Source of the DNA: Candidatus Kryptoniota bacterium
GTDB lineage: Bacteria; Bacteroidota; Ignavibacteria; Kryptoniales; JAKASW01
Length of the DNA stretch: 52,924 nucleotides
Reading direction: 5' to 3'
NCBI GenBank assembly: GCA_024641705.1
Contig: JAHECO010000026.1
Coordinates: 1 to 52,924 of the forward strand
Shown: positions 15,559 through 44,753 of the stretch, piece after piece
Layout: every line of letters begins with the position of its first letter
Position numbering within the stretch: the stretch's first letter is position 1
Position numbers and translations under genes: made by a program
Notes under the pieces: generated by a model
Databases searched by the model: none
What the model was told of the DNA's origin: nothing
Seen by the model: only the letters and a program-made list of their open reading frames with translations

Positions 15559-16283
15559 GGCACGGGAAAGCCGTTCTGATTATTCAAGCCCGGATGGGGT
15601 CCACACGTCTCCCCGGGAAATCAATGATGCCACTGGCAGGTAAACCTCTTATAGAGCAAATCATTCTAAGGGTGAAGCGAGCCAAGAGTGTGGATCCCAT
15701 TGTACTTGCGACTACTGAAAAACCTCAGGACGATGTGCTCTGCGAGGTCGCCAGGAGAAATGCCACCCAAGTATTTCGAGGCGCCGAAAGCGATCTCGTT
15801 GACAGATACTACAAGGCGGCTTTGCAGTTCGGAGCTGATTTTATTGTAAGACTTCCGGGGGACAATCCGGTAGTCGAGCCGGCAGAAATCGATCGCATAG
15901 TCCATCGTTATCTTGAATCTGCGGACGACTTTTCTGCGAATACTCACAATATCTTGAATAATGATTACCCGGATGGCTTGGGGGCCGAAGTGTTTTCAAC
16001 TCTAAGTCTGAAGGAAATCTGGGGGACTGTCAGTGATCCGAGAAATCGTGAACACCCGCACACAAATTACTATGAACATCCTGAAAAATATAAGATCGGC
16101 ACTGTAAGATGCCCCGAAGAGTTCCGTAGGCCCGACTTAAGACTCGATGTGAACACGTTAGAGGACTATGAGTTCCTTGCGGAGCTATACTCGGACTTGT
16201 TTCCGGTGAATCCCGATTTCCATATTACTGATATTATATCGTGGTACGATTCGGTTTATAAACACTCCAGAAAGGAGAAATAA
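15555..16283 (+). CDS. SpsF-like cytidylyltransferase
   Basis: A 242-residue nucleotidyltransferase of the SpsF/CMP-sugar-synthetase group. The N-terminal IIQARMGSTRLPGKSMMPLA is the nucleotide-binding signature; LPGDNPVVEPAEIDRI carries the metal-binding Asp. The DVNTLEDYEFL end is typical of SpsF. It probably activates the acidic sugar made by the next gene as its CMP derivative. ATGA overlap with the upstream gene. Confidence 0.85.
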   Translation: MRHGKAVLIIQARMGSTRLPGKSMMPLAGKPLIEQIILRVKRAKSVDPIVLATTEKPQDDVLCEVARRNATQVFRGAESDLVDRYYKAALQFGADFIVRLPGDNPVVEPAEIDRIVHRYLESADDFSANTHNILNNDYPDGLGAEVFSTLSLKEIWGTVSDPRNREHPHTNYYEHPEKYKIGTVRCPEEFRRPDLRLDVNTLEDYEFLAELYSDLFPVNPDFHITDIISWYDSVYKHSRKEK

Positions 16284-16287
16284 ATAA

Positions 16288-17139
16288 ATGGCTGAAGATT
16301 CCCCGTTCATTGTCGCAGAGATCGGCATTAATCACAATGGTGATCTCGGAATCGCCAAGAGTTTGATAGACTTGGCGAAGGATGCAGGATGCAATGCGGT
16401 AAAATTCCAAAAGAGGACAATAGAAATAGTCTATTCGCCTGAAATGCTCGCCGCCCCGAGGGAAAGCCCCTGGGGAACCACTACTCGGCAACAGAAAGAA
16501 GGTTTGGAGTTCGGTAAGAAGGAATATGATGAGATAGATCTCTATTGCAGGAAGGTTGGGATTGATTGGTTCGCTTCTGCATGGGATATCCCGAGCCAGG
16601 ATTTCCTCAGACAATATGACGTTAAGTATAACAAGATCGCAAGTGCAATGCTCACGCACTGGGACTTCACCGAATACGTGGCTAAGGAGAGAAAACAGAC
16701 GTTTGTCTCCACCGGCATGAGCACGATTGAAGAAATAGACAAAGCCGTCGGGATATTCAGGAAGCACAACTGCCCGTTCGTCTTGATGCACACCGTGTCG
16801 ACCTATCCTTGCAAGGATGAAGAGTGTAACATACTCATGGTGAAAACACTTAAAGACAAATATGGCTGCCGTGTCGGCTACAGCGGTCATGAGGTCGGAG
16901 TGCTCCCGTCGGTTCTCGCTGCAGTAATGGGCGCCGAAGTGCTGGAAAGGCATATCACATTGGACCGAGCTATGTATGGTAGCGACCAGGCAGCTTCACT
17001 CGAAAGAAGAGGATTGGAGATATTGGTGAGAGACAGTCGCCATGCAAAGTCAATCCTTGGATCGGGAGTTAAGACCATTTCTGACGCAGAGAAAGCTGTC
17101 GCAAAGAAGCTCCGGTACTTCAGGGGCAATGTGTCATGA
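16288..17139 (+). CDS. NeuB/SpsE-like PEP-dependent nonulosonate synthase, without SAF domain
   Basis: A 283-residue TIM-barrel synthase that by family condenses phosphoenolpyruvate with an aldose to give a 2-keto-3-deoxy acid. It has VAEIGINHNGD, AVKFQKR, STGMSTIEEID, GYSGHE and ERHITLD, all NeuB core motifs. The usual C-terminal SAF (antifreeze-like) domain of ~60 residues is absent; the protein stops after the barrel and a helix. GGAGAAA lies before the ATG. It overlaps the next gene by 4 bp. Confidence 0.87.
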   Translation: MAEDSPFIVAEIGINHNGDLGIAKSLIDLAKDAGCNAVKFQKRTIEIVYSPEMLAAPRESPWGTTTRQQKEGLEFGKKEYDEIDLYCRKVGIDWFASAWDIPSQDFLRQYDVKYNKIASAMLTHWDFTEYVAKERKQTFVSTGMSTIEEIDKAVGIFRKHNCPFVLMHTVSTYPCKDEECNILMVKTLKDKYGCRVGYSGHEVGVLPSVLAAVMGAEVLERHITLDRAMYGSDQAASLERRGLEILVRDSRHAKSILGSGVKTISDAEKAVAKKLRYFRGNVS

Positions 17140-17444
17140 TAGTCTGTTTCGATATCGACGGGACGATTTGCAGTAACACCGAGGGTGAGTACGAGAAGGC
17201 CGAAGTGAGACCTGAAGTCGTGGCTATATTGAATCGTCTCTACGACGAAGGCAATACCATATACTTGTACACTGCGCGCGGCTCTACAACGGGAATCGAC
17301 TGGCGGAATTTGACGGAAGATCAGTTGAAGAGCTGGGGCGTAAGATTTCATCGCGTGTTTTTCGGCAAACCGACTGCGGATTTGTACGTAGATGATAAGT
17401 GTGTAAATGTAAATGATTGGCTCAAAAAGGAGAAAACTCATTGA
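17136..17444 (+). CDS. Small HAD-family phosphatase (capsule type)
   Basis: A 102-residue minimal HAD protein: MIVCFDIDGTICSN (motif I, nucleophile Asp), YLYTARGS (motif II-like), KPTADLYVDDKCVN (motif III/IV). Short HADs of this kind occur in capsule loci and probably remove a phosphate from a sugar intermediate, perhaps the product of the adjacent NeuB-like enzyme. It overlaps both neighbours by 4 bp. Confidence 0.82.
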   Translation: MIVCFDIDGTICSNTEGEYEKAEVRPEVVAILNRLYDEGNTIYLYTARGSTTGIDWRNLTEDQLKSWGVRFHRVFFGKPTADLYVDDKCVNVNDWLKKEKTH

Positions 17445-18430
17445 AGACGTCGCTGGAAAGACAGGTATGGGTGAATGGAGAATTCGTACCTGAAAGCGAG
17501 GCAAAGGTTTCCATCTATGATTCGGCATTGATGTATGGGGATATGGTCTTTGAGATGACTCGCTCATTCAATAAGAAGCAGTTCAAATTGAGAGAACATC
17601 TTGAGAGACTTTACGCCGGCATCAAGATACTGCGGATTCCCCTGGAGATGTCGCTGGAGGAGATGCAGCGGAAGATCGAAGAGACCATCGAGGTAAATGA
17701 CCCTCTCTTCGAAAAGGATGACGAGCACCGCATGATGTTTGAGGTGTCGCGAGGCCCCCTTGGGTTGTATCACGGCGTGAAAGGCATTCACAAAGGACCC
17801 ACGGTCGTCATTGCAGATTTCCCTCTCAGGTGGACAGTTTCAAGCATGGGCCACCTTTTTGACAAGGGCATCAACGCGGTTATTCCATCCCAGCGCGCGA
17901 TCCCGGGGTGGCTTCTTGATCCAAAAATTAAAAACAGAAGCAGGCTCTTCTACATGATGGCTAATATAGAGGTTGCGAGCTACGAAGGAGAAGATAATTG
18001 GGCCTTGCTTCTCGATCCGGACGGCTACGTCGCGGAAGGGACAGGCGACAATTTTTTTATTGTAAAGGATGGCGTGATAATTACACCTGAGGGGAGAAAC
18101 ATACTTCGCGGAGTTAGCCGCGCCTATATCTTCGAATTAGCTAAGCAGTTGTCGATTCGGTGTTTTGAAAAGAATATTGAAGTGTATGATGTACATACGG
18201 CGGATGAAGCCTTCATGACTGGAACGCCGTTTTGTTTGCTTCCCGTGACCTCTCTGAACAGGGTGAAGATTCGTGAGGGCAAAATCGGGAAGATTACTAA
18301 ATCACTTCTTGACAGGTGGAGTGCGAATGTCGGTGTGAACGTGGTTAAGCAAATAAAGAAATGGTCGGAGAACCCCAGCGTTCCACCCGGGTCCACGACA
18401 CCGTACTCCTTCAAGGCGAAGGCAAAATGA
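17441..18430 (+). CDS. Class IV aminotransferase (IlvE / D-amino-acid aminotransferase fold)
   Basis: A 329-residue PLP enzyme of fold type IV: WVNGEFVPESEAKVSIYD, then LMYGDMVFEMTR, the PLP lysine in DPKIKNRSRL (about K164) and GYVAEGTGDNFFIVKDG with the conserved Glu. I chose TTG at 17441 (AAAAAGGAGAAA upstream, 4-bp overlap with the HAD stop) over 17417. The fold normally acts on amino acids or 2-keto acids. Inside a NeuB-type sugar operon it could transaminate a 2-keto acid or make an amino-acid substituent of the glycan. The exact substrate cannot be read from sequence. Confidence 0.85.
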   Translation: MKTSLERQVWVNGEFVPESEAKVSIYDSALMYGDMVFEMTRSFNKKQFKLREHLERLYAGIKILRIPLEMSLEEMQRKIEETIEVNDPLFEKDDEHRMMFEVSRGPLGLYHGVKGIHKGPTVVIADFPLRWTVSSMGHLFDKGINAVIPSQRAIPGWLLDPKIKNRSRLFYMMANIEVASYEGEDNWALLLDPDGYVAEGTGDNFFIVKDGVIITPEGRNILRGVSRAYIFELAKQLSIRCFEKNIEVYDVHTADEAFMTGTPFCLLPVTSLNRVKIREGKIGKITKSLLDRWSANVGVNVVKQIKKWSENPSVPPGSTTPYSFKAKAK

Positions 18431-19263
18431 GAAACATCGGGATTATGCAGGGAAGGCTGTCATCGCCCCTCAACGGCAAAATACAGTCCTTTCCGAAAGC
18501 GACCTGGAGAGAGGAATTTTTCAAGGCAAAGGAGTGCGGTTTTGGCCACATCGAGTGGATTTTTGAAAGTGATGAATGGGAGAAGAACCCGATCTCTTCA
18601 CAGGCCGGTATCGATGAAATTGAGGCCACCAAATCAGAGACAGGTGTCCAAATCGTATCGGTTTGCGCTGACTACTTCATGGACATACCATATCTGACTG
18701 CCGATGGGGAGCATCGTAAGGAACTCGCTGACAGGCTAAGGTGGCTCGTGGATCAGGCGAAGAAGATTGGAGCCCGTTTCATCGATTTGCCTTTTGTGGA
18801 CTCATCGCGGATCGAGTCAGAAGCAGCCTTTCCGTCCGTCAAGGAGTTCCTTACCCCTGCGATTGAGACCGCACAGAAGAACAACATTGCGCTGGCACTC
18901 GAAACGTCATTGCCGCCCAAATCTTTCAAGGATTTATTGCTGTTCATTAACCATCCGTTTGTGAAGGCAAACTATGATACTGGCAACAGTTCCGGGATCG
19001 GGTACAATTGCAGAGATGAATTGCGGAGCTATGGTAGGCACATAAGGACAGTGCATATCAAGGATCGTCTGCTGAACGACGGGACCAAGTCGTTGGGCTC
19101 CGGGAGTGCGGATTTTGATGCTTTCTTCGGCGAGTTGTCCGGGCTGGACTTCGATGGGCCAATCGTTTTGCAGGCGGCCAGGGAAGAAGAAGGAAAAGAA
19201 ATCGATACTGCCATCAAGAACAGACGCTTTGTCGAGCAATATCTCGAGAGGTTCGGTATCTGA
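18427..19263 (+). CDS. TIM-barrel sugar phosphate isomerase/epimerase
   Basis: A 278-residue protein of the AP-endonuclease-2/xylose-isomerase-like family. It opens MRNIGIMQGRLSSP, has FGHIEWIFE, LALETSLPP, KANYDTGNSSG (metal ligands) and RTVHIKDRLL, all usual positions for the metal-binding Glu/Asp/His residues. I chose ATG at 18427, overlapping the previous stop, over the upstream start at 18361. It probably isomerises or epimerises a keto sugar of the pathway. Confidence 0.85.
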   Translation: MRNIGIMQGRLSSPLNGKIQSFPKATWREEFFKAKECGFGHIEWIFESDEWEKNPISSQAGIDEIEATKSETGVQIVSVCADYFMDIPYLTADGEHRKELADRLRWLVDQAKKIGARFIDLPFVDSSRIESEAAFPSVKEFLTPAIETAQKNNIALALETSLPPKSFKDLLLFINHPFVKANYDTGNSSGIGYNCRDELRSYGRHIRTVHIKDRLLNDGTKSLGSGSADFDAFFGELSGLDFDGPIVLQAAREEEGKEIDTAIKNRRFVEQYLERFGI

Positions 19264-20042
19264 TGGATCTCGGGCTGCGCGGAAAGGTCGTGCTGATTGC
19301 AGGATCCAGCTACGGCCTTGGAAAGGCTGTTGCGGAGGGATTCCTCGGTGAAGGAGCAAATGTCGTTCTCACGGGAAGAGACAGGGCCCAGCTTGAGGAG
19401 ACGGAATCGTTTTTAAGTACTACCTGTGGTAATTCCGCCCGGATAATGTCTTATCCGGGAGATCTGACGAAACTTGATACGATAAGAGCATGCCTGAATT
19501 CTGTTCTGGAGCACTTAGGCAGAATTGACGTTCTTGTGGCTAACATTGGCTCTGGGGCGGGTTCTCGAGCATGGAATATTCCGGAAGATGATTGGGATGC
19601 AATGTTTGAAAAGAACTTCGATGGTGCGAGAAGAATAACCACTGAAGTTCTGGGTGCGATGGTCAATCAAGGTGGTGGGTCTGTTGTGTTCGTCAGTTCA
19701 ATTGCTGGGGTTGAAACAATTGGAGCACCGATTCATTACAGCGTTGCAAAGGCAGCTCTTATTGCCTATGCGAAGAACCTTTCAAGGAAAGTGGCTGAGA
19801 ACAATATTCGTGTGAATACAGTGGCTCCGGGAAATATCCTGTTCGAGAAGGGTACATGGGATCGTAAGCTGAAAGATGACAAAGATGGAGTGCTGGCGAT
19901 GTTGCGTGCGACAGTACCGCAGAACCGTTTTGCGACGCCCAGGGAGATATCCGATTTCATCGTGTTTGTCGCATCCGAAAGAGCGTCGTTCATGACGGGG
20001 TCCTGCATAATTGTTGATGGGGGGCAAACGGCAACCATCTGA
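19263..20042 (+). CDS. SDR-family oxidoreductase
   Basis: A 259-residue classical short-chain dehydrogenase: GSSYGLGKAVAEGF (cofactor loop), VANIGSGAG, SSIAGVETIG with the catalytic Ser, and YSVAKAAL with Y-x3-K. Its start overlaps the previous stop by 1 bp. Probably a keto-sugar reductase acting with the next SDR. Confidence 0.88.
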   Translation: MDLGLRGKVVLIAGSSYGLGKAVAEGFLGEGANVVLTGRDRAQLEETESFLSTTCGNSARIMSYPGDLTKLDTIRACLNSVLEHLGRIDVLVANIGSGAGSRAWNIPEDDWDAMFEKNFDGARRITTEVLGAMVNQGGGSVVFVSSIAGVETIGAPIHYSVAKAALIAYAKNLSRKVAENNIRVNTVAPGNILFEKGTWDRKLKDDKDGVLAMLRATVPQNRFATPREISDFIVFVASERASFMTGSCIIVDGGQTATI

Positions 20043-20056
20043 ACGCTGGAGAGATT

Positions 20057-20890
20057 ATGGGAGATACATCGGATCTTTTCAAATTAGCCGGTAGAGTTGC
20101 AATCATAACCGGAGGTGCCGGCTTCCTGGGAAGCAAACACGCTGAAGCCTTGTCGGAGTTCGGATGCAACACGGTTCTCATCGACGTGAACGCGGAACGG
20201 GTAAGGCTTGAAGCCAAAAGAATCGGCGACGCGTGTGGAACGACTTCCATCGGGATAGACTGCGACATCACCAACAAGACACAATTGGAGAAGGGACGAG
20301 AGTTTATTCTGCAGAAGTTCGGGCGAGTGGATATACTAATAAACAACGCGGCCATAGACCCCAAGGTCGATGACTCCGGCGAGAACTTTTCATTCGGCAG
20401 ACTTGAATATTTCTCTCTTGATCAATGGAGCCTCGAGCTCTCGGTGGGGCTCACCGGCTCCTTCCTCTGTGCTCAGGTCTTTGGTTCCCAAATGGCAAAA
20501 GCCGGGAAGGGAGTTATAATCAATATTTCTTCGGACCTTGGAATTATAGCCCCTGACCAAAGGCTGTACAGGAAACTCGGGCTGCCTGAAGAAAAACAAC
20601 CGGCTAAGCCCGTGACATACTCTGTAATTAAACACGGCCTCATCGGTTTAACAAAGTATCTCTCCACCTATTGGGGGGACAGGGGCGTACGTACAAATAC
20701 ATTGTGTCCCGGCGGAGTGTACAATAATCAACCCGAGGAGTTCGTGGAAAGAATCTCGAGCCTCATCCCGCTCGGTCGAATGGCAACGCGGGATGAATAC
20801 AAAGCGGCGATCGTCTTTCTTGCCAGTGACGCATCGTCTTACATGAACGGAAGCACACTGGTGCTGGATGGAGGCAGAACGATTTGGTAA
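20057..20890 (+). CDS. SDR-family oxidoreductase
   Basis: A 277-residue SDR: TGGAGFLGSKHAEAL, NNAAIDPK, NISSDLGIIAPDQRLYRKLG, YSVIKHGLIG and a C-terminal YMNGSTLVLDGG. The ~15-residue insertion between the Ser motif and the Tyr motif is seen in SDRs of nonulosonate/legionaminic loci (recalled, not searched). AGAGATT precedes the ATG. Confidence 0.86.
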   Translation: MGDTSDLFKLAGRVAIITGGAGFLGSKHAEALSEFGCNTVLIDVNAERVRLEAKRIGDACGTTSIGIDCDITNKTQLEKGREFILQKFGRVDILINNAAIDPKVDDSGENFSFGRLEYFSLDQWSLELSVGLTGSFLCAQVFGSQMAKAGKGVIINISSDLGIIAPDQRLYRKLGLPEEKQPAKPVTYSVIKHGLIGLTKYLSTYWGDRGVRTNTLCPGGVYNNQPEEFVERISSLIPLGRMATRDEYKAAIVFLASDASSYMNGSTLVLDGGRTIW

Positions 20891-21927
20891 ATCCTCCGAG
20901 CGCGAAAATTTCGGTCAAGCGAACAATTCTCCCAATCAAGGAATTCCACGACGTCTCCACCCCCTCTGTGACACTTTCCCGGTTTCAGTTCGAGAAGGTC
21001 GCTCTCTTCAATGCAAAAGTTGAAAAAGGAGAAATCCAGTTTGAGGAAACTCCCTGCCTCTGTGGTTCCCTAGAGTTTGACCTGATCGCTTCCGTGGACA
21101 GCAGATCATTTAAGCAAGACACAGTTATTTGCAGGGGCTGCGGTCTGATTCAGCTCAACCCCAGAATGACCGAAGATGAGTATAAGAAGTTCTATTCTTC
21201 GGATTTGTATCGGGAAACTTATGAGGGAGCGGCCTTTAGCCCGGCACTTTATCAATCTCGGTATGTCGACGCCACCGGCCGGCATATTCACAACGAGCTG
21301 GTAAAGCACAAGACGATTGATCGAGCATGCTCAGTTGCTGAGATCGGAGCAGGAGGAGGATGGAATCTTCTCCCGTTTATGAAGAAAGGCGCTACCGTTG
21401 TCGGCTTCGATTACAGTCGGAATCTTGTCGGGTTGGGTACCCAACACGGGATCGGAATGAAACTTGGAGGAGTTGAAGAAATGGACGACAAATATGATGT
21501 GATAGTCGTCAACCATGTACTCGAACATTTCCTCGACCCAATAGCTTCCTTGAAACGTCTGGTCGAACACCTGAGGCCCGACGGTGTTATATATATAGCC
21601 GTCCCCAACTTCTTGAATTTCAGCGGTCGTCAGTTCCAAAATGCTCACACATACTGCTTTACCCCGAGAACGTTCAAGCACTATTGCTCTAAAGGGGGGC
21701 TGAGTCTATTGGAATTTGGAAGCGCTCAGAAAATACATATGTTTGGAATTTTTAACATCAGCGCTGACAAAAGGGAAAAGTACGACCTTTCCGGTCACTA
21801 CCGTGAAATGGTCAGGTTCTTCAGAAGGCAAACTTTTCGAGGTCGGACCGCCGCTTTCCTGAAAAGCGCACACTTGTATAATGGGCTACGGCAATTATAC
21901 GGCTTTGGAAAGAAGTTCGCCGGATAA
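20884..21927 (+). CDS. Class I SAM-dependent methyltransferase with Cys-rich N-terminus
   Basis: A 347-residue protein. Residues ~58-60 (CLC) and ~85-88 (CRGC) form a likely zinc knuckle, then an AdoMet domain: VAEIGAGGGWNLLPF (motif I), VVGFDYS, VIVVNHVLEHFLDP and RPDGVIYIAVPN. This layout matches C-methyltransferase-like and related proteins of sugar loci. TTG at 20884 overlaps the SDR stop by 7 bp. The C-terminal ~90 residues are basic and helical. Confidence 0.8.
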   Translation: MVNPPSAKISVKRTILPIKEFHDVSTPSVTLSRFQFEKVALFNAKVEKGEIQFEETPCLCGSLEFDLIASVDSRSFKQDTVICRGCGLIQLNPRMTEDEYKKFYSSDLYRETYEGAAFSPALYQSRYVDATGRHIHNELVKHKTIDRACSVAEIGAGGGWNLLPFMKKGATVVGFDYSRNLVGLGTQHGIGMKLGGVEEMDDKYDVIVVNHVLEHFLDPIASLKRLVEHLRPDGVIYIAVPNFLNFSGRQFQNAHTYCFTPRTFKHYCSKGGLSLLEFGSAQKIHMFGIFNISADKREKYDLSGHYREMVRFFRRQTFRGRTAAFLKSAHLYNGLRQLYGFGKKFAG

Positions 21928-21928
21928 G

Positions 21929-23692
21929 ATGTTCCTCGCAACCACGGCAATCGAGTCCTTCTGGGATAAATCGCAAAGTATGCTCTTTCTCGGAGAATGG
22001 TGTAAACTGTTCGAAGCTAGGGCGCATTGGGAGCCACTGGACTACGAGGTCCTTCCATATCACTGGCGGGATCGAGCGAAACTCAAGAGTGATTACCAGT
22101 ATCTTGACAGAGTCTACGAGGTTTACATGAATGAACTCTCGTCGATTCTGAACAACACGCTGAATGTTGATTATCCGGTTCGCTACTGGCGTGTCCTCGT
22201 GGGCTGGTGGCTGAAGCTGTTTATCGAGATCTTGTTTGACAGGTACTCGAATGTCGTAGGGGCGGCGGATAAATTCGGCGCACTTGAAACGTGGATTACA
22301 CCGGGTCAGCAGTATGTTGGCTCTGCGGCCCGCGACCTAGAAGGTTTTATCGCCTCTATTGTGGGCGACAGATACAACCTGTTCCTGTTCAGTCGAATTA
22401 TAGAGATACTCAAGAAGGTCCCGTTCCAGTATAGATCATATCCCGATGAGGCTACGAAGAATGCTCCCGTTTCGGGCTTGTCCGCCGTCAAATGGACCAG
22501 GCACAAAGTCAATAACATCATGTTTCGCTCGCTGAAACATTTGGTCGGTGACCGCGATGTCTTTTTCTACCGAAGCCACATCAACCGTCTGGCTCTTCTG
22601 CTAATGAATCTGAAGTTGAATCAGGTCCCTACCCCTGGAGGTTACTATGTGCCCAGGGAAGATCTGTCTCCCGATTTAGACTTAAGGGGACGTGTCGGTA
22701 TTTCAGCGGGGATCGACGAATTTACTTCTGTGTTGGATAAACTTGTGTTCGAGTCGATACCGCTGGCCTACCTTGAAGGTTATCATCAGTATTCGAACCT
22801 GGCGCAAGCCACATTTCCTGAGGCGTGCGGGACAATTTGCACTGCAAATGCTCATCTTTCTGACGATCTCTTTAAGTTCTGGGCCGCCGGCAGAATGACA
22901 AAGGGAAGCAAACTTGCGATTGCCCAGCATGGCGGGAACTACGGATCGGGCCTGTTCAGCAGTCAGGAAGACTTCGAACTGAAGATTGCAGACACCTTTT
23001 TCACCTGGGGTTGGAACGGCGGTGAAAAGACGGTACCGATGGGTTCTTCAAAGCTTCTCGAAGCCAAACGAAAGAAGCAAAGAGGAAAGGGTGTTATTTA
23101 CTGGAACCTGAACTCATGCCCGCGATATTCTTACAGACTCTTCTCAATTCCGTTTGGACCCACCTGGCAGGAGTACATCGATCTCCAGATAAGATTTGCG
23201 CAGAGGCTCCCGGTGCATGTGAGAAAGAAAATTGTGTGTCGGCCGTATTCCAGTAACTATGGGTGGCTCGAAGCTGATAGGATAAGGGAGAAGGTAGGAG
23301 ATGTGAAGTTCGATCTTTCGGGGAAACGTTGGGGCAAGGCATTGAACGAGGCCAGCATAGTCCTGGAAACGACGAACCTGACTACACTTTTGGAGTCGCT
23401 GGCAGCTGACGTTCCGACGATTCTTCTCATGTCACGAGACACCTGGGAAGTAAACGATAACGCGAGACCCTATTTCGATATGCTTCAGGAGGCCGGGATC
23501 TTTTTTGATAATTATGAAGAAGCTGCCGGGAAGCTTGTTTCGATTCATGCGGATCCATCAGAGTGGTGGTCGGACCGGAAAGTGCAGAATGCCAGGGAAG
23601 CATTCTGCACTCGCTTTGCATTCACCTCCGAACATTGGATAGCACAACTCACTTCTGAGTTGGCTAAAATCAACGGGTATCAAACGAACTGA
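21929..23692 (+). CDS. LIC12162-family putative transferase
   Basis: A 587-residue protein of the family named after a Leptospira LPS-locus gene. It starts MFLATTAIESFWDKSQSMLF, continues LGEWCKLFE and has the family-type features QHGGNYGSG, TFFTWGWNG and ETTNLTTLLESLAADVPTIL, the last like the donor-binding region of GT-B enzymes. I chose ATG at 21929 over the in-frame ATG at 21881, which lies inside the previous gene. It probably transfers the unusual sugar made by this operon. The function of the family is not proven. Confidence 0.85.
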   Translation: MFLATTAIESFWDKSQSMLFLGEWCKLFEARAHWEPLDYEVLPYHWRDRAKLKSDYQYLDRVYEVYMNELSSILNNTLNVDYPVRYWRVLVGWWLKLFIEILFDRYSNVVGAADKFGALETWITPGQQYVGSAARDLEGFIASIVGDRYNLFLFSRIIEILKKVPFQYRSYPDEATKNAPVSGLSAVKWTRHKVNNIMFRSLKHLVGDRDVFFYRSHINRLALLLMNLKLNQVPTPGGYYVPREDLSPDLDLRGRVGISAGIDEFTSVLDKLVFESIPLAYLEGYHQYSNLAQATFPEACGTICTANAHLSDDLFKFWAAGRMTKGSKLAIAQHGGNYGSGLFSSQEDFELKIADTFFTWGWNGGEKTVPMGSSKLLEAKRKKQRGKGVIYWNLNSCPRYSYRLFSIPFGPTWQEYIDLQIRFAQRLPVHVRKKIVCRPYSSNYGWLEADRIREKVGDVKFDLSGKRWGKALNEASIVLETTNLTTLLESLAADVPTILLMSRDTWEVNDNARPYFDMLQEAGIFFDNYEEAAGKLVSIHADPSEWWSDRKVQNAREAFCTRFAFTSEHWIAQLTSELAKINGYQTN

Positions 23693-25537: not shown

Positions 25538-26281
25538 ATGAAGAACTCAGTTACGATAGGTTCATGGATTACGCTAAACCATTCTTCCATTGCCGAGATT
25601 ATGGCGGGTGCCGGGTTCGACTGGCTTTGTATCGACCTGGAACACTCAGTTACTGATTATTTTGAGGCGCAGCAATTGATAGCTACAGTCCGATCGAAGG
25701 GACTTAAGTCTTTTGTAAGGGTCGGCGAGAACAATTCGAGGATCATTAAAAGAGTTCTCGATGCCGGTGCCGACGGGGTGATCGTCCCGATGGTTTGCAC
25801 GAAAGATGACGCGCTGAAAGCGGTCGATTCGGTGAAGTATCCGCCGGTTGGAAAAAGGGGCGTAGGTCTAGCGAGGGCGCAGCAGTTCGGATTCGGTTTC
25901 GAGGAGTATGCCGCTCGCGTGAATAGCGACACAAAAATAATTGCACAGATAGAGCACATAGATGCAATAAAGAACCTGGAGGCCATCCTGAGCGTTGAAG
26001 GAATTGACGGCACCATCATAGGTCCGTACGATCTGTCAGGCTCACTCGGCAAGCCGGGCAGGTACGACGATGACGATGTAAGAAAGGCGATCGCACAGTA
26101 CGAGGACGTCACGAAACGCTACAACAAGCTGGTCGGGTTCCACGTGATTCAGCCGGACTACAATCTGGTGCTCGAGAAGATGAGCAAAGGCTATAACTTC
26201 ATAGCGTTTTCTCTCGATACGCTCTTCCTTGGAACCCTTTGCCGCAATCAGATGAAGTCATTGAAGGAGAAAATGAATTGA
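25538..26281 (+). CDS. HpcH/HpaI-type class II pyruvate aldolase
   Basis: A 247-residue aldolase: GFDWLCIDLEHS, RVGENNSRIIKRVLDAGADG, AQIEHIDAIKNLEAIL (metal Glu) and GTIIGPYDLSGSLGKP (metal Asp). The family joins pyruvate to aldehydes to give 2-keto-3-deoxy-4-hydroxy acids, or the reverse. Immediately downstream is a CMP-Kdo-synthetase-like gene with a 4-bp overlap. Together they could make and activate a 3-deoxy-ulosonic acid without the PEP-dependent KdsA route. The direction of the reaction is inference. Confidence 0.87.
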   Translation: MKNSVTIGSWITLNHSSIAEIMAGAGFDWLCIDLEHSVTDYFEAQQLIATVRSKGLKSFVRVGENNSRIIKRVLDAGADGVIVPMVCTKDDALKAVDSVKYPPVGKRGVGLARAQQFGFGFEEYAARVNSDTKIIAQIEHIDAIKNLEAILSVEGIDGTIIGPYDLSGSLGKPGRYDDDDVRKAIAQYEDVTKRYNKLVGFHVIQPDYNLVLEKMSKGYNFIAFSLDTLFLGTLCRNQMKSLKEKMN

Positions 26282-27054
26282 ACATTATCGGAATCATTCC
26301 GGCCCGTCTGGCATCCACAAGGTTTCCCAATAAGCCTCTGGCAAAGATACTCGGAATGCCGATGATCGGACACGTGGCCCTGAGGAGTAAGATGTGCCGC
26401 GACCTGTCCGAAGTCTACATAGCCACTTGCGACAAGGAGATCGCCGATTATGCAGGGACCATCGGGATCAAGGCCGTCATGACTGCCGACACTCATGAAA
26501 GGGCATCCGACAGGACCGCAGAGGCGCTGCTCAAGGTAGAGAAAGAGACCAGCCGGAAGGTGGACATAGTGGTCATGATCCAGGGGGATGAGCCGATGGT
26601 TACGCCGGAGATGATCTCTGCCGCCGTGAAGCCTCTGCTCGACGACAGTGAGATCAAGGTCTCCAACCTGATGGCGACCCTGAATTCGAGGGAAGAACAT
26701 GAGGACCCGAACGAAGTGAAGGTGGTGGTCGACAAGCAGGGATTTGCCATGTATTTTTCGCGCGAGCCTATCCCGTCCAGGAAGAAAGGGGCCAAAGACG
26801 TCCCGATGCTGAAGCAGGTCTGCATCATCCCGTTCGAGAGAGATTTTCTCCTGAAGTACAACGGGATGGAACAGACGCCGCTGGAGAAAGTGGAATCCGT
26901 GGATATGAACAGGATCCTCGAGAACGGGCTTAAAGTGAAGATGGTCTTCACGGGCTCCACGACTTATTCGGTCGATACCCAGGAAGACCTGAAGAACGTC
27001 GAGGAGGCCATGCGGAATGATTCGTTGCTGAAGACATATCAGGCGTCGAGATGA
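26278..27054 (+). CDS. KdsB-like CMP-ulosonate cytidylyltransferase
   Basis: A 258-residue nucleotidyltransferase: IGIIPARLASTRFPNKPLAK, then VVMIQGDEPMVTPEMI, AMYFSREPIPSRK and VDTQEDLKNVEEAM, all KdsB hallmarks. I chose TTG at 26278 (GGAGAAAATGAA upstream, ATTGA overlap with the aldolase stop) because MNIIGIIPAR is the normal N-terminus. No KdsA, KdsD or KdsC stands beside it, so the sugar need not be Kdo itself. Confidence 0.85.
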   Translation: MNIIGIIPARLASTRFPNKPLAKILGMPMIGHVALRSKMCRDLSEVYIATCDKEIADYAGTIGIKAVMTADTHERASDRTAEALLKVEKETSRKVDIVVMIQGDEPMVTPEMISAAVKPLLDDSEIKVSNLMATLNSREEHEDPNEVKVVVDKQGFAMYFSREPIPSRKKGAKDVPMLKQVCIIPFERDFLLKYNGMEQTPLEKVESVDMNRILENGLKVKMVFTGSTTYSVDTQEDLKNVEEAMRNDSLLKTYQASR

Positions 27055-28629: not shown

Positions 28630-28651
28630 GCTTAAGAAAGGGAGGCCGGAA

Positions 28652-30430
28652 TTGAAGAACACTGCTAATATCGAGAATGTGGCGATCGTCTTCGGCAAGG
28701 ACGAAGAGAACTCATTCAATAGATATACCTTCCCCATCCTGGGAAGACCCGTCGCAAGCTACCCCCTTCTTGCGGCGCTTCATGCGGACAAGATCGATTC
28801 GGTTTACCTATCTTCCGATTCTCCACAGCTGCTGAACCTTGGCAGGAATATGACGGGTGTGACTGTTCTTGAACGGAAGAAATCACAGCCGACTCTGACG
28901 GAAGAAGTCCGTCACGCCGTGGACCTTGTGTCCAAACAGTTAGGATACAAGCCCCAGACGGTGACGATTCTTCTTGCGAATTCTCCTTGTATCGACTCTG
29001 CCAATATCGATGATGCGATTTCATTCCTGGAAAAGAAAACAGAGTTTGACTCGGTCGCGACGGCGATGCACAGAGCCGAATTCAATCCGATGAGGATATT
29101 CTCCCTCGACGCGTCGGGCAATCTGACGAGAAACGGGTCCGTGCAGGAATATTCCGGCGATGCATATTTCCTGGACAGGCGGGTAATGGTCGTCAGAACC
29201 GGAACCCTTGTTGCTTCCGGTGTCAACAACAACTATTTCGAAGGTTTGCTCGGAAAGCATATTCACCCAATAATGCAGCAGGACGGCATATGGGATATAG
29301 ATTACGTGTGGCAGGTCCCGATTGTCGAACGGTGGCTCCGACAGAACGGATTCACCGATTCTCAGACGCCGTACGACAGGAAAGAGAGCGCTTCGACTCT
29401 CTCTTTTCTCAGCACGGGTCGCGATAAGAAACCGGTATCCGGGAAGGTCTACAAGGCACTCATTACCACCGTCCCCTTTGGCGCGGTGGATCCTACTCCC
29501 ATAAAACTTCTCGAGGCAACACCGAACGTCGAGTATGTGATCAATCCGATCGGCAGAAAGCTGAAGGAGATTGAACTTGCCGAGCTGGTGAAGGAATTCG
29601 ACATTATCATAGCCGGAACAGAGCCTATAACACGAAAGGTGATGGAAAACGGGCGCAATCTGAAATTAATATCCAGAGTCGGAATCGGCCTGGACAGTGT
29701 TGACCTTGCGGCTGCCAGGGAGCTCGGCATTGCGGTCACTTACACACCCGATGCACCTTCTCCGGCTGTCGCGGAATTGACGGTTGCACACATGATCAAC
29801 ATGTTGCGGCGCGTCCCCCTGGTAGACAGGAAGCTGCGTTCCGGGATATGGCAGCGTATTCACGGCGAGCGCCTCGCCAATATGACGATCGGGATTGTAG
29901 GGACAGGCAGGGTCGGCAGCAGGGTCCTTCGACACCTGCAGGGGTTCGGCCCTCGAAGGATCATGGTCAACGATCTGAAGCCGGATTTCAACCTATACGA
30001 GATGTATCACGCAGAGTTCGCAGAGAAGGAATCTATCTACCGTGAGGCCGACATCATCACACTTCACATCCCGCTCACCCCGCTAACGCGTAACCTGATC
30101 TCGAAGCAGCAAATGGATACGATGAAGAAGGGGGTCTTCCTCATCAATACTTCGAGGGGCGGCATCGTGAACGAACACGACCTCTATGCCGCCCTGTCAG
30201 GCGATCATATTGCCGGTGCGGCAATCGATACGTTTGAAAGTGAACCTTACACCGGGAACCTCATTGAACTTGATAACTGCTACCTGAGCTGTCATATGGG
30301 CTCGATGACCAACGACTGCAGAGCGGCAATGGAAATCCAGGCGACCGAAGAGGCCTGCAGGTTCGTCCGCAATGAGCCGCTGAGACAGCCTGTACCCGAT
30401 GAAGAATACGAATTTGCACTTGTGAAGTGA
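28652..30430 (+). CDS. Fusion: NeuA-like cytidylyltransferase domain plus D-2-hydroxyacid dehydrogenase
   Basis: A 592-residue two-domain protein. Residues 1-~230 follow an acylneuraminate cytidylyltransferase (FPILGRPVASYPLLAAL, SVYLSSDSPQLLNLG, TILLANSPCIDSANIDDAIS, YFLDRRVMVV). However, the canonical ARGGSKG/RKN nucleotide loop is replaced by GKDEENSFNRY. Residues ~265-592 are a phosphoglycerate-dehydrogenase-like enzyme: GIVGTGRVGSRVLRHL, catalytic Arg in NTSRGGIVNE (near 500), Glu in DTFESEP (near 529), His in SCHMGS (near 548). GGGAGG precedes the TTG. It could oxidise/reduce and bind an ulosonic acid; the first domain may be inactive or regulatory. Confidence 0.85.
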   Translation: MKNTANIENVAIVFGKDEENSFNRYTFPILGRPVASYPLLAALHADKIDSVYLSSDSPQLLNLGRNMTGVTVLERKKSQPTLTEEVRHAVDLVSKQLGYKPQTVTILLANSPCIDSANIDDAISFLEKKTEFDSVATAMHRAEFNPMRIFSLDASGNLTRNGSVQEYSGDAYFLDRRVMVVRTGTLVASGVNNNYFEGLLGKHIHPIMQQDGIWDIDYVWQVPIVERWLRQNGFTDSQTPYDRKESASTLSFLSTGRDKKPVSGKVYKALITTVPFGAVDPTPIKLLEATPNVEYVINPIGRKLKEIELAELVKEFDIIIAGTEPITRKVMENGRNLKLISRVGIGLDSVDLAAARELGIAVTYTPDAPSPAVAELTVAHMINMLRRVPLVDRKLRSGIWQRIHGERLANMTIGIVGTGRVGSRVLRHLQGFGPRRIMVNDLKPDFNLYEMYHAEFAEKESIYREADIITLHIPLTPLTRNLISKQQMDTMKKGVFLINTSRGGIVNEHDLYAALSGDHIAGAAIDTFESEPYTGNLIELDNCYLSCHMGSMTNDCRAAMEIQATEEACRFVRNEPLRQPVPDEEYEFALVK

Positions 30431-30455: not shown

Positions 30456-31361
30456 ATGAAGACCGTTGTTTTTGGCGGATCCGGGTTCCTCGGCAGTCAT
30501 GTGGCCGATGCCCTCACTGAAAGAGGACATGAAGTCTGCGTTTTTGACAGGGTGGAATCGACATACCGCAAGGATAACCAGCATATGATTGTGGGAAATA
30601 TCCTTGACGAGGAGCAGGTCCACGAAGCCATCAGAGGGGCAGACTACGTCTATCATTTTGCCGGTATCGCCGATATCAGGAAAGCCAACGAATATCCCGT
30701 CGACACCGTGAAATACAATATTCTCGGGACAACGAATATCCTTGATGCATGCGTGAAGCACAGCGTCAGGAGATTCATGTTCGCGAGCACGATTTACGTG
30801 TACAGCGAGCATGGCGGGTTCTACAGGGCGAGCAAGCAGGCATGCGAGCTGCTGATCGAGAGTTACAGCAGGATACACGGCCTGAAGTTCTCCGTACTTA
30901 GATTCGGTTCCTTATACGGAAGGCGGGCAAATGAGTTCAACTTCATTCATAATGCAATCGTGCAGGCGATCACCGAGAAGAAGATCGTCAGGAAAGGCGA
31001 CGGCAACGAAGTCAGAGACTACGTCAATGTGCTCGATGCTGCGGCGGCATGCGTCGACATCCTGGACCGAGAGTTTGAAAATTCATATGTCATGATCACC
31101 GGTACGCAAACGATGAGGGTAAGGGAAATACTTGAAATGATCCGTGAGATGCTCAATGGAGAGATAGAAATCGAGTATGTGTCGGACCGGCTGGAGGAGC
31201 ATTACGAGATTGCCCCTTACAACTTCAGGCCGAAGGTCGCCAGGAAGTATGTTCCCAAGTACTACCATGACCTCGGTCAGGGCATTCTTGATTGTATATA
31301 TGATGTCTACCAGTTGTCGTCCCTTGATAAAGGCGAGAGGCAAACCGGATCCGGCAGTTGA
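30456..31361 (+). CDS. NAD-dependent epimerase/dehydratase (extended SDR)
   Basis: A 301-residue sugar-nucleotide enzyme: FGGSGFLGSHVADAL, YVYHFAGIADIRKANEYP, ASTIYVYSEHGGFYRASKQA (Ser/Thr and Y-x3-K) and RDYVNVLDAA. It is a little shorter than GalE. The C-terminal region VARKYVPKYYHDLGQGI is unusual. It probably epimerises or reduces a nucleotide-activated sugar of this branch. Confidence 0.85.
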   Translation: MKTVVFGGSGFLGSHVADALTERGHEVCVFDRVESTYRKDNQHMIVGNILDEEQVHEAIRGADYVYHFAGIADIRKANEYPVDTVKYNILGTTNILDACVKHSVRRFMFASTIYVYSEHGGFYRASKQACELLIESYSRIHGLKFSVLRFGSLYGRRANEFNFIHNAIVQAITEKKIVRKGDGNEVRDYVNVLDAAAACVDILDREFENSYVMITGTQTMRVREILEMIREMLNGEIEIEYVSDRLEEHYEIAPYNFRPKVARKYVPKYYHDLGQGILDCIYDVYQLSSLDKGERQTGSGS

Positions 31362-31387
31362 GCCGGCCCCCCGGAAGAGGGTCCGCG

Positions 31388-32047
31388 TTGAAGAATCGAA
31401 AGCAGCTGAAAACGATTGTGTTTGATTTTGATGGCGTCATCCTTGAATCCGTCGACATCAAAACCCGGGCGTTTGCAGATATCTACCGGGGATACGGTGA
31501 AGGGGTAGTTCAGAAAGTGACGCGATACCACGAGGCTCACGGAGGTATTGCCCGATTTGAGAAGTTCAAATATTTTCACAAAGAGTTCCTGGGAGTCGAC
31601 CTTTCCAGGGAGGAGATAGAGAGTCTGGCGCTGCAGTTTCGCGAGCGGGTCTTTCAAAGAATGCTGGAGGCTCATTTTGTGCCGGGGGCATTTGAATTCC
31701 TCAGAGAGCACTCCGGGGACTACGACTGCTATATCTCGTCCGGGACGCCCGAGGAAGAAATGAGGGAGATTGCAAGGTTGAGAGGTCTCGATAAGTTCTT
31801 CATCGGCATATTCGGTTCTCCTGCATCGAAGTCGGAACACCTTGAACGCATAATGAAGGGCCGCGGTTACCGACCTGCGGAGGTTGTTTTCGTGGGGGAT
31901 TCAGGCTCCGACAAGATTGCTGCTATGAATGCGGGAGTGACTTTCATCGCAAGGGTGAACGGCCTATCCGAACTCAAACACGAACTGCACGTGATGCCCG
32001 ATCTGCGAAATCTTGGGAAATACCTGGAGGAGAATCTCGGTGATTGA
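31388..32047 (+). CDS. HAD-family phosphatase
   Basis: A 219-residue HAD hydrolase of the beta-phosphoglucomutase/Gph type: TIVFDFDGVILES (nucleophile Asp), YISSGTPEEEM (motif II), a conserved Lys near FGSPASKSEHL, and VVFVGDSGSDKIAAMNAGV (motif IV). I chose TTG at 31388 behind GAAGAGGG, over TTG 31358. It overlaps the next gene by 8 bp. Likely a sugar-phosphate phosphatase. Confidence 0.83.
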   Translation: MKNRKQLKTIVFDFDGVILESVDIKTRAFADIYRGYGEGVVQKVTRYHEAHGGIARFEKFKYFHKEFLGVDLSREEIESLALQFRERVFQRMLEAHFVPGAFEFLREHSGDYDCYISSGTPEEEMREIARLRGLDKFFIGIFGSPASKSEHLERIMKGRGYRPAEVVFVGDSGSDKIAAMNAGVTFIARVNGLSELKHELHVMPDLRNLGKYLEENLGD

Positions 32048-32852
32048 GCTGACTGAGAACGGGAAATTGGATTTCGGAAAGGGGATTCCGTACAGTGGGC
32101 CCGATTCGCGGATTCTTTCTTCACATCGAGAACTTGGAACCGAATACGATGTTCTAATCTTCACCGACTCAAAAGGAGGTACCCATACAACGGCCGAGTG
32201 GCCGACATGGACCGAGCTTGTGATCGAAAGGCTCGAAGAGCGCGGCCTGACATACCTGTTTATTTGCAGACCTAAAGAGATAACCATCTTCTTCACTCTC
32301 ATGAATTTTCTGAAGGGGAATGCGATTTCTTTCAAATACCTCGTTACCAATCTCGGCTTTGTGGATTTTACGCCAAAGAAGATAGAGTTCATGCACGATA
32401 TCATTGCACAGAACCCTTTTCCCGACAATCTCCAAAACCTGAAGTTCAAAGTTTTGGGCAAGTACAAATTAAGCGATGGCCAGTTGGCCGATCTATACAC
32501 ATTCGATTATGGTGACGTCGAATCATTAATAGCCCGGGAAATCGAGAGCAGGTTTGATTATTCGCTTCTCCTGGGATGCCTGGAATTCTCAAGTGAAATC
32601 AAGATAGAGCGGCAGAGACCGCCCGCTTTCTTTGAGCAGCTCAAGAGATCCAACAGTTTTATTTTCAATATTGCCCAGCGATCTAGCTCCATTCACTATA
32701 TACAACCTTTGAAATACCAACTCCCGGGTCTCCCGCTAATGTCCTACGATGCGGTCCATTTCACTGAAGCAGGTCACTCTGTGAACTTCGAAATCATAAA
32801 GCCGCTTGTCGATAGTTATATAATCGGCCACAGCCAGAGACGTGGAATCTAA
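32040..32852 (+). CDS. SGNH/GDSL-like hydrolase-fold protein
   Basis: A 270-residue protein with a possible SGNH frame: IFTDSKGGTH near the N-terminus (candidate Ser block) and YDAVHFTEAGHSVN near the C-terminus (D-x-x-H block). These would form an esterase or acyltransferase triad. The middle is unfamiliar. It starts at GTG 32040, behind GGAGGAGA and overlapping the HAD stop. If active it may add or remove O-acyl groups on the glycan. Confidence 0.55.
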   Translation: MIELTENGKLDFGKGIPYSGPDSRILSSHRELGTEYDVLIFTDSKGGTHTTAEWPTWTELVIERLEERGLTYLFICRPKEITIFFTLMNFLKGNAISFKYLVTNLGFVDFTPKKIEFMHDIIAQNPFPDNLQNLKFKVLGKYKLSDGQLADLYTFDYGDVESLIAREIESRFDYSLLLGCLEFSSEIKIERQRPPAFFEQLKRSNSFIFNIAQRSSSIHYIQPLKYQLPGLPLMSYDAVHFTEAGHSVNFEIIKPLVDSYIIGHSQRRGI

Positions 32853-34626
32853 CACAGGGAAGCGGAGGATCCTGATTCTCCATCCGGACCTAAAAACTCA
32901 CTCGAGGTACGCAGGCAATAGCGACGCCGTTCTGCTTTTTGAACCGCGCGCATTCAATGGTCTGGTGGATAGCTTGCGCAGAGACTACTCCGACTTTGTG
33001 GACGGCATAAGCCTGAAATATCGGGACAACATAGACTGGTGGGTGACATCGGTTGCGAGCCGGGATACCGTACAAAGCAAAGCGTATCTGAATCTGGCAT
33101 ACCTTTTATATCTTGGGTCTCTGCTCTCAAACGGGACCCAAATTGACGTGATTGTCTGCGGATCAAGAGGGCTGAAAAGATCGATCGACAGCCTCCTTCG
33201 CGACAGGAGGATTTCGGGAATAGAAATCGACCTCGTTCGGGATAGGGGGCTGCGCAACATGATAAAGAGAAGCTTGCTTGTCCACCTGGTTCGAGTCGTA
33301 AAGTTCGTCCTCGACACTTTCAGAAAGGAGTTGTCGGCTCGGGCTTCGAGGGCGGAAGGCCGGCGTCCCGATTTTAAACATCCATTGCTGTTGGCAGACA
33401 TTTTCATCCTGGACGGCACTTTCAAGGGCGACCGATTTGAAGACAGGTATTATAATGACTTTCCGGATGCGCTTGCAGAAATGAACTTTGCGTATCTCCC
33501 TACGCTCTGCATAACGAAAGAATACCGGAGCGTCTTTTCGAAAATGCGTTCCTCCAAACACCCGTTCCTGATAAAAGAGGATTTTCTCACTGCCGGGGAC
33601 TATCTGTGGACTATGCTTCATGTTGTAAGAGGTGCCCTGCTCCCGAAATATTATCACAAATTCAGGGATCTCGACGTGTACCCGATTTTCAACGAGGACT
33701 TCCTGGAAAATCTCTCGACGAGCTCGTTCGAGGCGCTCCTCGGCTTCAGATTGATCAAGAGGCTCAGAGAAAGGAAAGTTCGAATCGGGTTGTTGCTGGA
33801 TTGGTTTGAAAACCAGAACGTGGATAAATCGCTGAACCTTGCAATACACAAGTTCCATCCGGAGACCAGGTCTCTAGGATACCAGGCATTTAACGTATCT
33901 TCAAATTACCTTTGCGTCCAACCGACGGCGGTCGAACAGAATGCAGGAGTCATCCCGGACATAGTTGCGGTCTCCGGAAAAGCCAAGACGAATTACCTGA
34001 AGGAGCTTAATAGTAACCTCGAGGTTGTGGTGGCACCGGCTTTCAGGTTCAAGCATGTCTGGAAAGCAAATGAGACGCGGAAAGGCGGGGATCTTTCCGT
34101 ACAGGTGAGCCTGCCGATGATGCTCCCGGACTCCCTGGAGATCCTGAAAGTTTTGCGCTCGATTCGGGCCAGGCTCCCTTCCAGCATAAAGTTCGCCGTC
34201 AAGATACATCCGGTGACCGATCGGAAGAAGGTCGAATCGTTTCTCAGTTCGAATCAGATGGACACAATACCGGTGTGGACCGACTCTTTCGAAGAGTGTT
34301 TGAAGCGGACCTCGGTGCTGGTGTCGAGTACCTCCAGCGTGATAATGGAGGCGATCACTAAGGGAGTGCCCGCCATAGTTATAGGGAGCCAATCGCAGAT
34401 TACGCACAACCCGATACCGCCGGGACTCGATCAGAAGATGTGGGCGCTTTGCTATACGGCCGACGAGGTCGCCGAGAAAATCCGGTTCTACTCCGGACTG
34501 GATGACGAGTCGAGGGCCGGGCTTGCGAAGATCGGGGAGAAAATCAAAGAGGAATACTTCGAGCCCGTAACCGCGGAATCAGTCTCGGGTTTCACGTCTC
34601 TTCTGCAACGGATGATGTTGAATTAA
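32842..34626 (+). CDS. Putative GT-B-type glycosyltransferase
   Basis: A 594-residue protein. The C-terminal third has the GT-B donor-site look of CMP-sugar or polysialyl/Kdo-type transferases: KFAVKIHPVTDRKKV, TDSFEECLKRTSVLVSSTSS and VIMEAITKGVPAIVIGS. The N-terminal part (about 1-330) carries no motif I know. GTG at 32842 overlaps the SGNH-like stop. Given two CMP-transferase genes upstream, a CMP-ulosonate donor is plausible. Overall layout recalls the LIC12162-type protein at 21929, but the similarity is weak. Confidence 0.65.
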   Translation: MESNTGKRRILILHPDLKTHSRYAGNSDAVLLFEPRAFNGLVDSLRRDYSDFVDGISLKYRDNIDWWVTSVASRDTVQSKAYLNLAYLLYLGSLLSNGTQIDVIVCGSRGLKRSIDSLLRDRRISGIEIDLVRDRGLRNMIKRSLLVHLVRVVKFVLDTFRKELSARASRAEGRRPDFKHPLLLADIFILDGTFKGDRFEDRYYNDFPDALAEMNFAYLPTLCITKEYRSVFSKMRSSKHPFLIKEDFLTAGDYLWTMLHVVRGALLPKYYHKFRDLDVYPIFNEDFLENLSTSSFEALLGFRLIKRLRERKVRIGLLLDWFENQNVDKSLNLAIHKFHPETRSLGYQAFNVSSNYLCVQPTAVEQNAGVIPDIVAVSGKAKTNYLKELNSNLEVVVAPAFRFKHVWKANETRKGGDLSVQVSLPMMLPDSLEILKVLRSIRARLPSSIKFAVKIHPVTDRKKVESFLSSNQMDTIPVWTDSFEECLKRTSVLVSSTSSVIMEAITKGVPAIVIGSQSQITHNPIPPGLDQKMWALCYTADEVAEKIRFYSGLDDESRAGLAKIGEKIKEEYFEPVTAESVSGFTSLLQRMMLN

Positions 34627-43186: not shown

Positions 43187-44218
43187 ATGATAGTCGTTCG
43201 AACACCTTTTCGTCTGCCTCTCGGCGGTGGAGGTACCGATTTGCCGTCTTACTATAAGAAATATGAGGGGTTCCTTATTACGGCGGCAATAAATAAGTAC
43301 ATGTACATCAATCTTAATCTTCCCGCGATAGTGGATAAGATTAAGATTAACTACTCCAAGACGGAGATTGTTGGCGTCAACGAGATTGACAAGATTGACC
43401 ACAACATCGTCCGCGAGACGCTGAGATATCTGAAGGTGAAACAACCGCTCGAGATTCACTCGATGGCGGACTTGTCGGGCGGTACAGGTATGGGGTCGTC
43501 CAGCTCATACACGGTTGGTCTGTTGAAGGCACTTAACCTTATGCTGCGCCGCTACATCCCAGTTAAGGATCTTGCTGAAGAGGCCTGCAGAATTGAAATC
43601 GATCTCATCGGAAAGCCTATAGGTAAACAGGATCAGTATGCTGCAGCGTTTGGCGGAATCATTCAGATGGAAATCGATCAGCTCGGCTATGTCACCGTTA
43701 CTCCTCTTAATCTGGAGCACGAGGTTGTATATGAGCTGGAGAACAGGCTTTTGATGTTTTACACAGACATAGAAAGAGATGCTAACAAAATACTAGCAGA
43801 GCAAAGTGAGAAAATTGCCAAGGGTTCAAAGAGCGCCGAGACCGCAAAAAGACCAGACCAGGAGGGAAAAGCCGTCCAAGCGATGCACAAGATCAAAGAG
43901 ATCGGGCACGAGGTAAAGAAGTCCCTGGTTGAAGGTAATGTTGAACAGTTCGGCAGGTTGCTTAACGAACATTGGCTGGTCAAGAAGGGCATCTCGGACC
44001 GGATGAGCAGTGCAGAAATTGATAAGTGGTATGACCTTGCCATGGCCAATGGAGCGCTTGGGGGGAAGATCATGGGCGCGGGCGGCGGCGGCTTCTTCCT
44101 CTTCTGTGTTGGGAATGGAAAAAGGAAACACTTGAGGAAAACTCTTGAAAATGCTGGCCTGAAGTATATGAATTTCAAGTTCGACTGGGAAGGGAGTAAG
44201 GAGCTGGTGAATATATGA
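43187..44218 (+). CDS. hddA: HddA-like GHMP sugar kinase
   Basis: A 343-residue GHMP kinase of the D-glycero-alpha-D-manno-heptose-7-phosphate kinase type: IVVRTPFRLPLGGGGTDLPS, SGGTGMGSSSSYTVGLLKAL (ATP loop, about 99-118), GKQDQYAAAFGG and KIMGAGGGGFFLFC. By family it makes heptose 1,7-bisphosphate for GDP-heptose. An HddC-like gene follows at 46206, with a heptad/S23 insertion and an epimerase between. GCGAGGG precedes the ATG. Confidence 0.88.
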   Translation: MIVVRTPFRLPLGGGGTDLPSYYKKYEGFLITAAINKYMYINLNLPAIVDKIKINYSKTEIVGVNEIDKIDHNIVRETLRYLKVKQPLEIHSMADLSGGTGMGSSSSYTVGLLKALNLMLRRYIPVKDLAEEACRIEIDLIGKPIGKQDQYAAAFGGIIQMEIDQLGYVTVTPLNLEHEVVYELENRLLMFYTDIERDANKILAEQSEKIAKGSKSAETAKRPDQEGKAVQAMHKIKEIGHEVKKSLVEGNVEQFGRLLNEHWLVKKGISDRMSSAEIDKWYDLAMANGALGGKIMGAGGGGFFLFCVGNGKRKHLRKTLENAGLKYMNFKFDWEGSKELVNI

Positions 44219-44262
44219 GCAGAGGGCATGGAGCAGAGAGCAGAGGGCATAGGGCAATAGCG
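44219..44262 (+). repeat. Heptanucleotide repeat tract (left arm of S23 unit 2)
   Basis: It begins right after the hddA stop: AGCAGAG, GGCATGG, AGCAGAG, AGCAGAG, GGCATAG, GGCAAT in 7-bp steps. The consensus differs from that in the dprE region. GCATAGGGCA (44247-44256) is the exact reverse complement of 44704-44713 on the other side of the S23 gene. Confidence 0.87.
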
Positions 44263-44284
44263 ACGTGGGAGGAGAAATGGGAAA

Positions 44285-44638: not shown

Positions 44639-44683
44639 TGTTCTACAACTATCTCGGTATACTCTCCGCGCCCATTGTTCCGC

Positions 44684-44723: not shown

Positions 44724-44753
44724 GAGATACTCGACTAACCCGGGAGCTTCAAG

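Follow-up and report, generated by a model that had tools for sequence, protein, structure and literature searches.

A rare fusion of a NeuA-like domain, probably a pseudo-cytidylyltransferase, with a D-2-hydroxyacid dehydrogenase in a bacterial carbohydrate locus

Introduction

CMP-sugar synthetases are known as parts of multidomain proteins, for example NeuA joined to an O-acetylhydrolase and animal CMAS with its HAD-like C-terminal domain. In both, the synthetase domain is active, unlike in the protein described here, where it probably is not. The closest described relatives of this domain are the NeuA/PseF enzymes (V. cholerae 6ifd/6ifi, A. caviae 9ftb), which share with residues 6-240 of the fusion protein the fold, the SP motif and a DxD near the domain end. 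However, the fusion protein lacks their G-S...P-x-K-N loop and RPxEL motif, is joined to a dehydrogenase and is probably non-catalytic in this half. KdsB, the CMP-Kdo synthetase, is a member of the same superfamily, and an intact KdsB is encoded three genes upstream of the fusion; structure alignments between KdsB and the fused domain give about 9-17% identity, and the conserved loop Lys is absent or replaced by Arg. In KdsB this Lys (K19) works together with two aspartates on CTP and Mg, and D219 is a Mg ligand (PMC3149649).

The closest relatives of the other half are phosphoglycerate dehydrogenase (PGDH, 1wwk) and glyoxylate reductase (2dbq), which have in common with it both Pfam domains, the NAD loop and the Arg/Glu/His triad. 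The fusion dehydrogenase differs in forming its own subfamily, which is tied to CMP-sugar clusters, and in carrying an extra N-terminal domain.

A functional parallel may be offered by GMPPA, which is non-catalytic, binds GDP-mannose and regulates GMPPB (PMC11228364). GMPPA is an inactive paralog with a nucleotidyltransferase fold that shares its pathway with an active one, as the fused domain would with a KdsB or NeuA-like enzyme. However, GMPPA belongs to a GDP-mannose system and is not fused to a dehydrogenase, and for the fusion the parallel rests on the co-encoded intact KdsB or NeuA-like gene. In openly licensed papers, no description was found of either the fusion or the gene set around it.

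The fusion gene and its orthologs

The window, that is, the whole stretch of DNA analyzed, is 52,924 nucleotides long, and its relevant features are listed in Table 1. A preliminary description had proposed that a NeuA-like domain is fused here to a D-2-hydroxyacid dehydrogenase, and Pfam bears this out, with CTP_transf_3 and both 2-Hacid domains found in a single protein.

Table 1. Features of the fusion gene and of the gene set around it (positions in the window; residues are those of the fusion protein)
Feature	Position	Strand	Details and basis
HpcH/HpaI class II aldolase	25538..26281	+	Family search; ortholog in L062 adjoins the fusion there
Intact KdsB-type CMP-sugar synthetase	26272..27054	+	Longest ORF from 26239; NF009905, 309.7 bits
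Shine-Dalgarno-like GGGAGG	28640..28645	+	6 nt 5' of the TTG start of the fusion; sequence
Fusion gene	28652..30430	+	592 aa, stop counted in the span; TTG start; frame open for 592 codons
N-terminal NeuA/CMP-sugar-synthetase-like domain, residues 1-238	28652..29365	+	Pfam CTP_transf_3, AF2 model, fold search, motif loss
Rewritten nucleotide loop, residues 15-33 (GKDEENSFNRYTFPILGRP)	28694..28750	+	Sequence comparison
Acidic pair D215-x-D217 (W-DID-Y), metal type, kept in N-terminal domain	29294..29302	+	Invariant in fusions
Variable linker, residues 239-266	29366..29449	+	Linker identity among fusions
C-terminal D-2-hydroxyacid dehydrogenase, residues 267-592	29450..30427	+	Pfam PF00389/PF02826, PDB homologs
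NAD-binding GTGRVG, residues 417-422	29900..29917	+	Sequence
Catalytic triad R502 (30155), E531 (30242), H548 (30293)	30155..30295	+	Invariant, 19 sequences
SDR/NAD-dependent epimerase of the set	30456..31361	+	Family search, locus comparison
HAD-family phosphatase of the set	31358..32047	+	Family search, locus comparison

Three such fusions are known, all of them from MAGs or drafts of separate lineages and 60-62% identical. One full-length ortholog (62%) is encoded by an Ignavibacteriales MAG, L021, and genome G036 has this protein too; the other (60%) is from L022, a MAG with the title Deltaproteobacteria. The linker region is variable, with 14-39% identity across residues 236-268 among the orthologs.

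The N-terminal domain

CTP_transf_3 was matched with E 4.3e-6 when the whole fusion protein was searched; the N half alone gave E 1.4e-6 and 28.7 bits, which is above the curated cut-off of 22.6. An AlphaFold2 model of residues 1-266, for which the input was 24 sequences, has a pLDDT of 88 (in a model of the full-length protein, the N half was poor, with a mean pLDDT of 74 and a pTM of 0.55). The top PDB matches of the N-half model in Foldseek are CMP-NeuAc synthetases (E 1.2e-16), the best fold match being V. cholerae NeuA (6ifi; VIA Z 23.7, 199 residues, rmsd 3.0), and the NeuA/CMP-sugar-synthetase fold spans about residues 7-238. Thus, the fold is kept, as had been proposed, and so is the SP motif.

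The motifs are another matter, and here too the preliminary description, which saw the nucleotide loop as lost, was correct. The nearest stand-alone relatives carry GRKGSxGFPGKN, RPPEL and CDRDSQGD, and their full loop, GRKGSxGFPGKNxxPILGRP, is the counterpart of fusion residues 15-33. In the alignment the three fusions have GKDEENSF-NRYT, GKKEKTNF-NRYT and AKEENLSF-NRFT instead, and the pattern (A/G)RxGSxxxPxKN is absent from all of them. An invariant basic residue, K16, occupies the position of the loop Arg, and R24, also invariant, lies at or next to that of the loop Lys. Since a one-residue gap fits either placement, the loop Lys-Asn, present in 21 of 21 stand-alone relatives, has become either Arg-Tyr/Phe or Tyr/Phe-Thr. 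R75 of RPxEL stays, whereas P, E and L are gone in all three fusions, together with about four residues after the motif. The R[DQ][SD] motif (CDRDSQGD in the sisters) has no counterpart in the aligned fusions and is probably lost; the acidic metal pair, D215 and D217, is invariant among them. When columns conserved in the stand-alone relatives (n = 33) are compared, the fusions keep 20, and eight are lost in all three, including the loop Ser, the loop Asn and P-E-L.

The domain is nevertheless not decaying freely. The differences at codon positions 1, 2 and 3 of the N-domain are 0.39-0.42, 0.22-0.27 and 0.65-0.68, and in both halves of the gene the second position changes far less than the third, which shows that the N-domain is still under selection.

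What this selection acts on can be viewed in several ways. The domain might merely stabilize or multimerize the dehydrogenase as a ligand-free, frozen remnant of an operon fusion. The N half does evolve faster than the C half (48-55% versus 67-74% identity among the fusions), and unfused orthologs show that the dehydrogenase manages without it. However, FNRxTFPILxRP, NSPCI and QQxGIWDIDYxWQ, which lie at the old pocket, are invariant across distant lineages, more than scaffolding would need, and so we consider this explanation unlikely. Ligand binding by the domain is possible.

Alternatively, the domain could be a working cytidylyltransferase with a new loop, in which case the protein would be bifunctional, with activation of a 2-keto sugar acid in one half and a redox step in the other. 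The retained DxD and SP motif would fit, K16 and R24 could substitute for the loop Arg and Lys, and the new loop has residues that do not vary among the three orthologs. On the other hand, every ortholog has lost the loop Ser, Asn and proline as well as P-E-L, with the deletion behind RPxEL, and every fusion locus encodes an intact synthetase, KdsB in the window and L021 and a NeuA-like enzyme in L022. The lost loop, the lost P-E-L and the role of the loop Lys in KdsB therefore make catalysis improbable, and an activating role for the fused domain, one of the options raised originally, is unlikely. The other option, a sensor or binder, is the one we favor: the fused domain is probably a pseudo-cytidylyltransferase that serves as a ligand-sensing or docking module.

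The C-terminal dehydrogenase

Both the catalytic and the NAD-binding domains are present in the C half (2-Hacid_dh_C, E 5.6e-49; 2-Hacid_dh, E 6.2e-25). R502, E531, H548, G417 and G419 are invariant across 19 homologs. As judged from these residues, the site of a D-2-hydroxyacid dehydrogenase is complete, in agreement with the triad and Rossmann loop (GTGRVG) noted at the outset.

The best equivalog model for this half is PGDH, with 217.7 bits, which might suggest a house-keeping 3-phosphoglycerate dehydrogenase of serine synthesis that has drifted into the locus. However, the score is far under the TIGR01327 cut-off of 454, the genome has its own SerA-like gene on another contig, C94 (525 aa, 31% identical), and orthologs of the dehydrogenase are placed in sugar clusters; we regard such an origin as very improbable.

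Distribution and origin

The fusion is present in two of 391 genomes of the class and in one of 395 genomes of the phylum to which the L022 genome belongs, and within the window's genus none of the 12 further genomes sampled has it. A scan of 84,980 species genomes returned two further fusions; it used short, near-exact peptide patterns and so finds close relatives only. The architecture is rare and is conserved in three distant bacteria, and the possibility that it is a common one can be set aside given its rarity among the class and phylum genomes.

The three fusions form one clade in the trees of both domains (SH-aLRT 93 for the C-terminal and 100 for the N-terminal domain). In the N-domain tree this clade sits on a long stem (1.45) next to intact stand-alone sisters. 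The trees give one origin of the fusion and fit a lateral spread after it. Phages, plasmids and viral contigs contain no full-length match, and an origin from a phage or plasmid was rejected.

The genome is a draft of 95 contigs, and a join error near 29400 had been a concern, but with two independent orthologs of full length and codon-level constraint in each half, an assembly or gene-calling artefact is practically ruled out.

The gene set around the fusion

The neighbors of the fusion are conserved along with it. Between the window and the L021/L062 fusion locus, the aldolase is 70% identical, KdsB 71%, the SDR epimerase 62% and the HAD phosphatase 47%. Core Kdo is probably not the task of the local KdsB, because the genome also encodes a canonical KdsB on contig C52 (40% identical to the local one and above the TIGR00466 cut-off) and a KdsA on contig C63. 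The intact local KdsB, and probably not the fused domain, would supply activation. In the L022 genome, an intact NeuA-like sister of the N-domain is located about 8.5 kb from the fusion.

The window encodes other sugar genes. The interval 14953-20890 has a SIS isomerase, a SpsF-like cytidylyltransferase, a NeuB/SpsE-type synthase, a class IV aminotransferase, a TIM-barrel isomerase and two SDRs, and this is possibly another nonulosonic-type CMP-sugar pathway. At 43187-51526, genes for a GHMP kinase, an NTP_transferase, a phosphofructokinase-like protein, a SIS protein and a transaldolase-like protein resemble a nucleotide-activated heptose route. A transposase-like ORF of 536 aa, called from reading the sequence, lies within the polysaccharide locus at 6968-8578. 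Two large proteins are encoded at 32842-34626 and 21881-23692, the first of which is a weak match to TIGR04326 (Leptospira-type surface carbohydrate biosynthesis). Relatives of these two proteins adjoin dehydrogenase orthologs in L066 and L118-L120, and for this reason they may be transferases for the sugar.

A recurring set near unfused dehydrogenases

Eighteen loci, two of which are fusions, were picked only for their similarity to the dehydrogenase half, and their neighbors within 7 kb were compared. The recurring set consists of an HpcH/HpaI aldolase, a KdsB or NeuA-like synthetase, the dehydrogenase, an SDR epimerase and a HAD phosphatase. The CMP-sugar synthetase and the SDR are each present in 13 of the 18 loci, the HAD protein in 11 and the aldolase in 10; the 15 control dehydrogenase loci contain none of the four. 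The Fisher p values for these markers against the controls range from 3e-5 to 5e-4 and are overstated, since some of the loci are related (L118/L119). One locus, L117, with an unfused ortholog of 59% identity, is without any marker gene.

Variants of the set exist. NeuA-like replaces KdsB in L124, L125 and L129, and genes for a DHQ-synthase-like cyclase, SIS and Gfo/Idh proteins are present in L121-L123. In these three (L121:2252-8556, L122:4267-9337 and L123:5971-14359), the dehydrogenase orthologs lie beside the cyclase, SIS and Gfo/Idh genes and a synthetase and/or aldolase gene, an arrangement that is possibly a cyclitol variant. Intact NeuA-like sisters of the N-domain also occur with radical SAM/SPASM, aminotransferase, sulfotransferase and SDR genes (L080:4499-10211 and L078:6705-13099); the L080 stretch has an Ldh_2-type dehydrogenase, and a D-2-hydroxyacid dehydrogenase was not seen in it.

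The order of the two halves in the fusion recurs among separate genes, as L122, L126 and L128 have a synthetase gene immediately 5' of the one for the dehydrogenase. In L054, unfused orthologs of both halves are present in one cluster. CMP-sugar synthetase genes are repeatedly found next to unfused dehydrogenase orthologs, and CMP-sugar-acid activation would therefore be linked with 2-hydroxyacid/2-ketoacid redox; the fusion is a pointer to this link, as the two are separate neighboring genes elsewhere. The original suggestion that the fusion joins activation to redox therefore holds in part: the gene context supports the link, but activation is assigned to the separate intact synthetase. The product of the set is probably a CMP-activated surface sugar of the ulosonic type.

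Predicted function

On balance, we lean towards an NAD-dependent D-2-hydroxyacid dehydrogenase of a CMP-activated ulosonic-type surface-sugar pathway that carries a pseudo-cytidylyltransferase in cis as a binding module. The pathway, the substrate, the ligand, the regulation and the sensing or docking role are what we infer. The ancestor of the N-domain would have been a NeuA-like synthetase, which is a separate gene in related clusters. Following a single fusion upstream of the dehydrogenase, the CTP loop would have been lost and the domain retained as a binding module. Going by what is known of these enzyme families, the aldolase would form a 2-keto acid for activation by KdsB, and the dehydrogenase would either provide a 2-keto acid, for example hydroxypyruvate, or modify an intermediate. 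The N-domain would most likely sense the sugar acid or a CMP-derivative and adjust the dehydrogenase accordingly; alternatively, it may dock the dehydrogenase to the catalytic KdsB/NeuA-type enzyme of the same locus.

A bolder version, which we put forward tentatively and with considerable doubt, is that the dead synthetase is an in-cis sensor of product or substrate, similar to GMPPA but acting on another class of enzyme, the dehydrogenase that feeds the pathway, and that the set is an undescribed CMP-ulosonic route in which a pyruvate- or hydroxypyruvate-type aldolase replaces the PEP-dependent NeuB/KdsA.

Conclusions

In conclusion, the finding points to a recurring gene set for an acidic surface sugar that we have not found described and whose enzymes are testable. 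Within it, the fusion would be a compact case of a domain that appears to have lost catalysis and yet is kept by selection beside its active relative.
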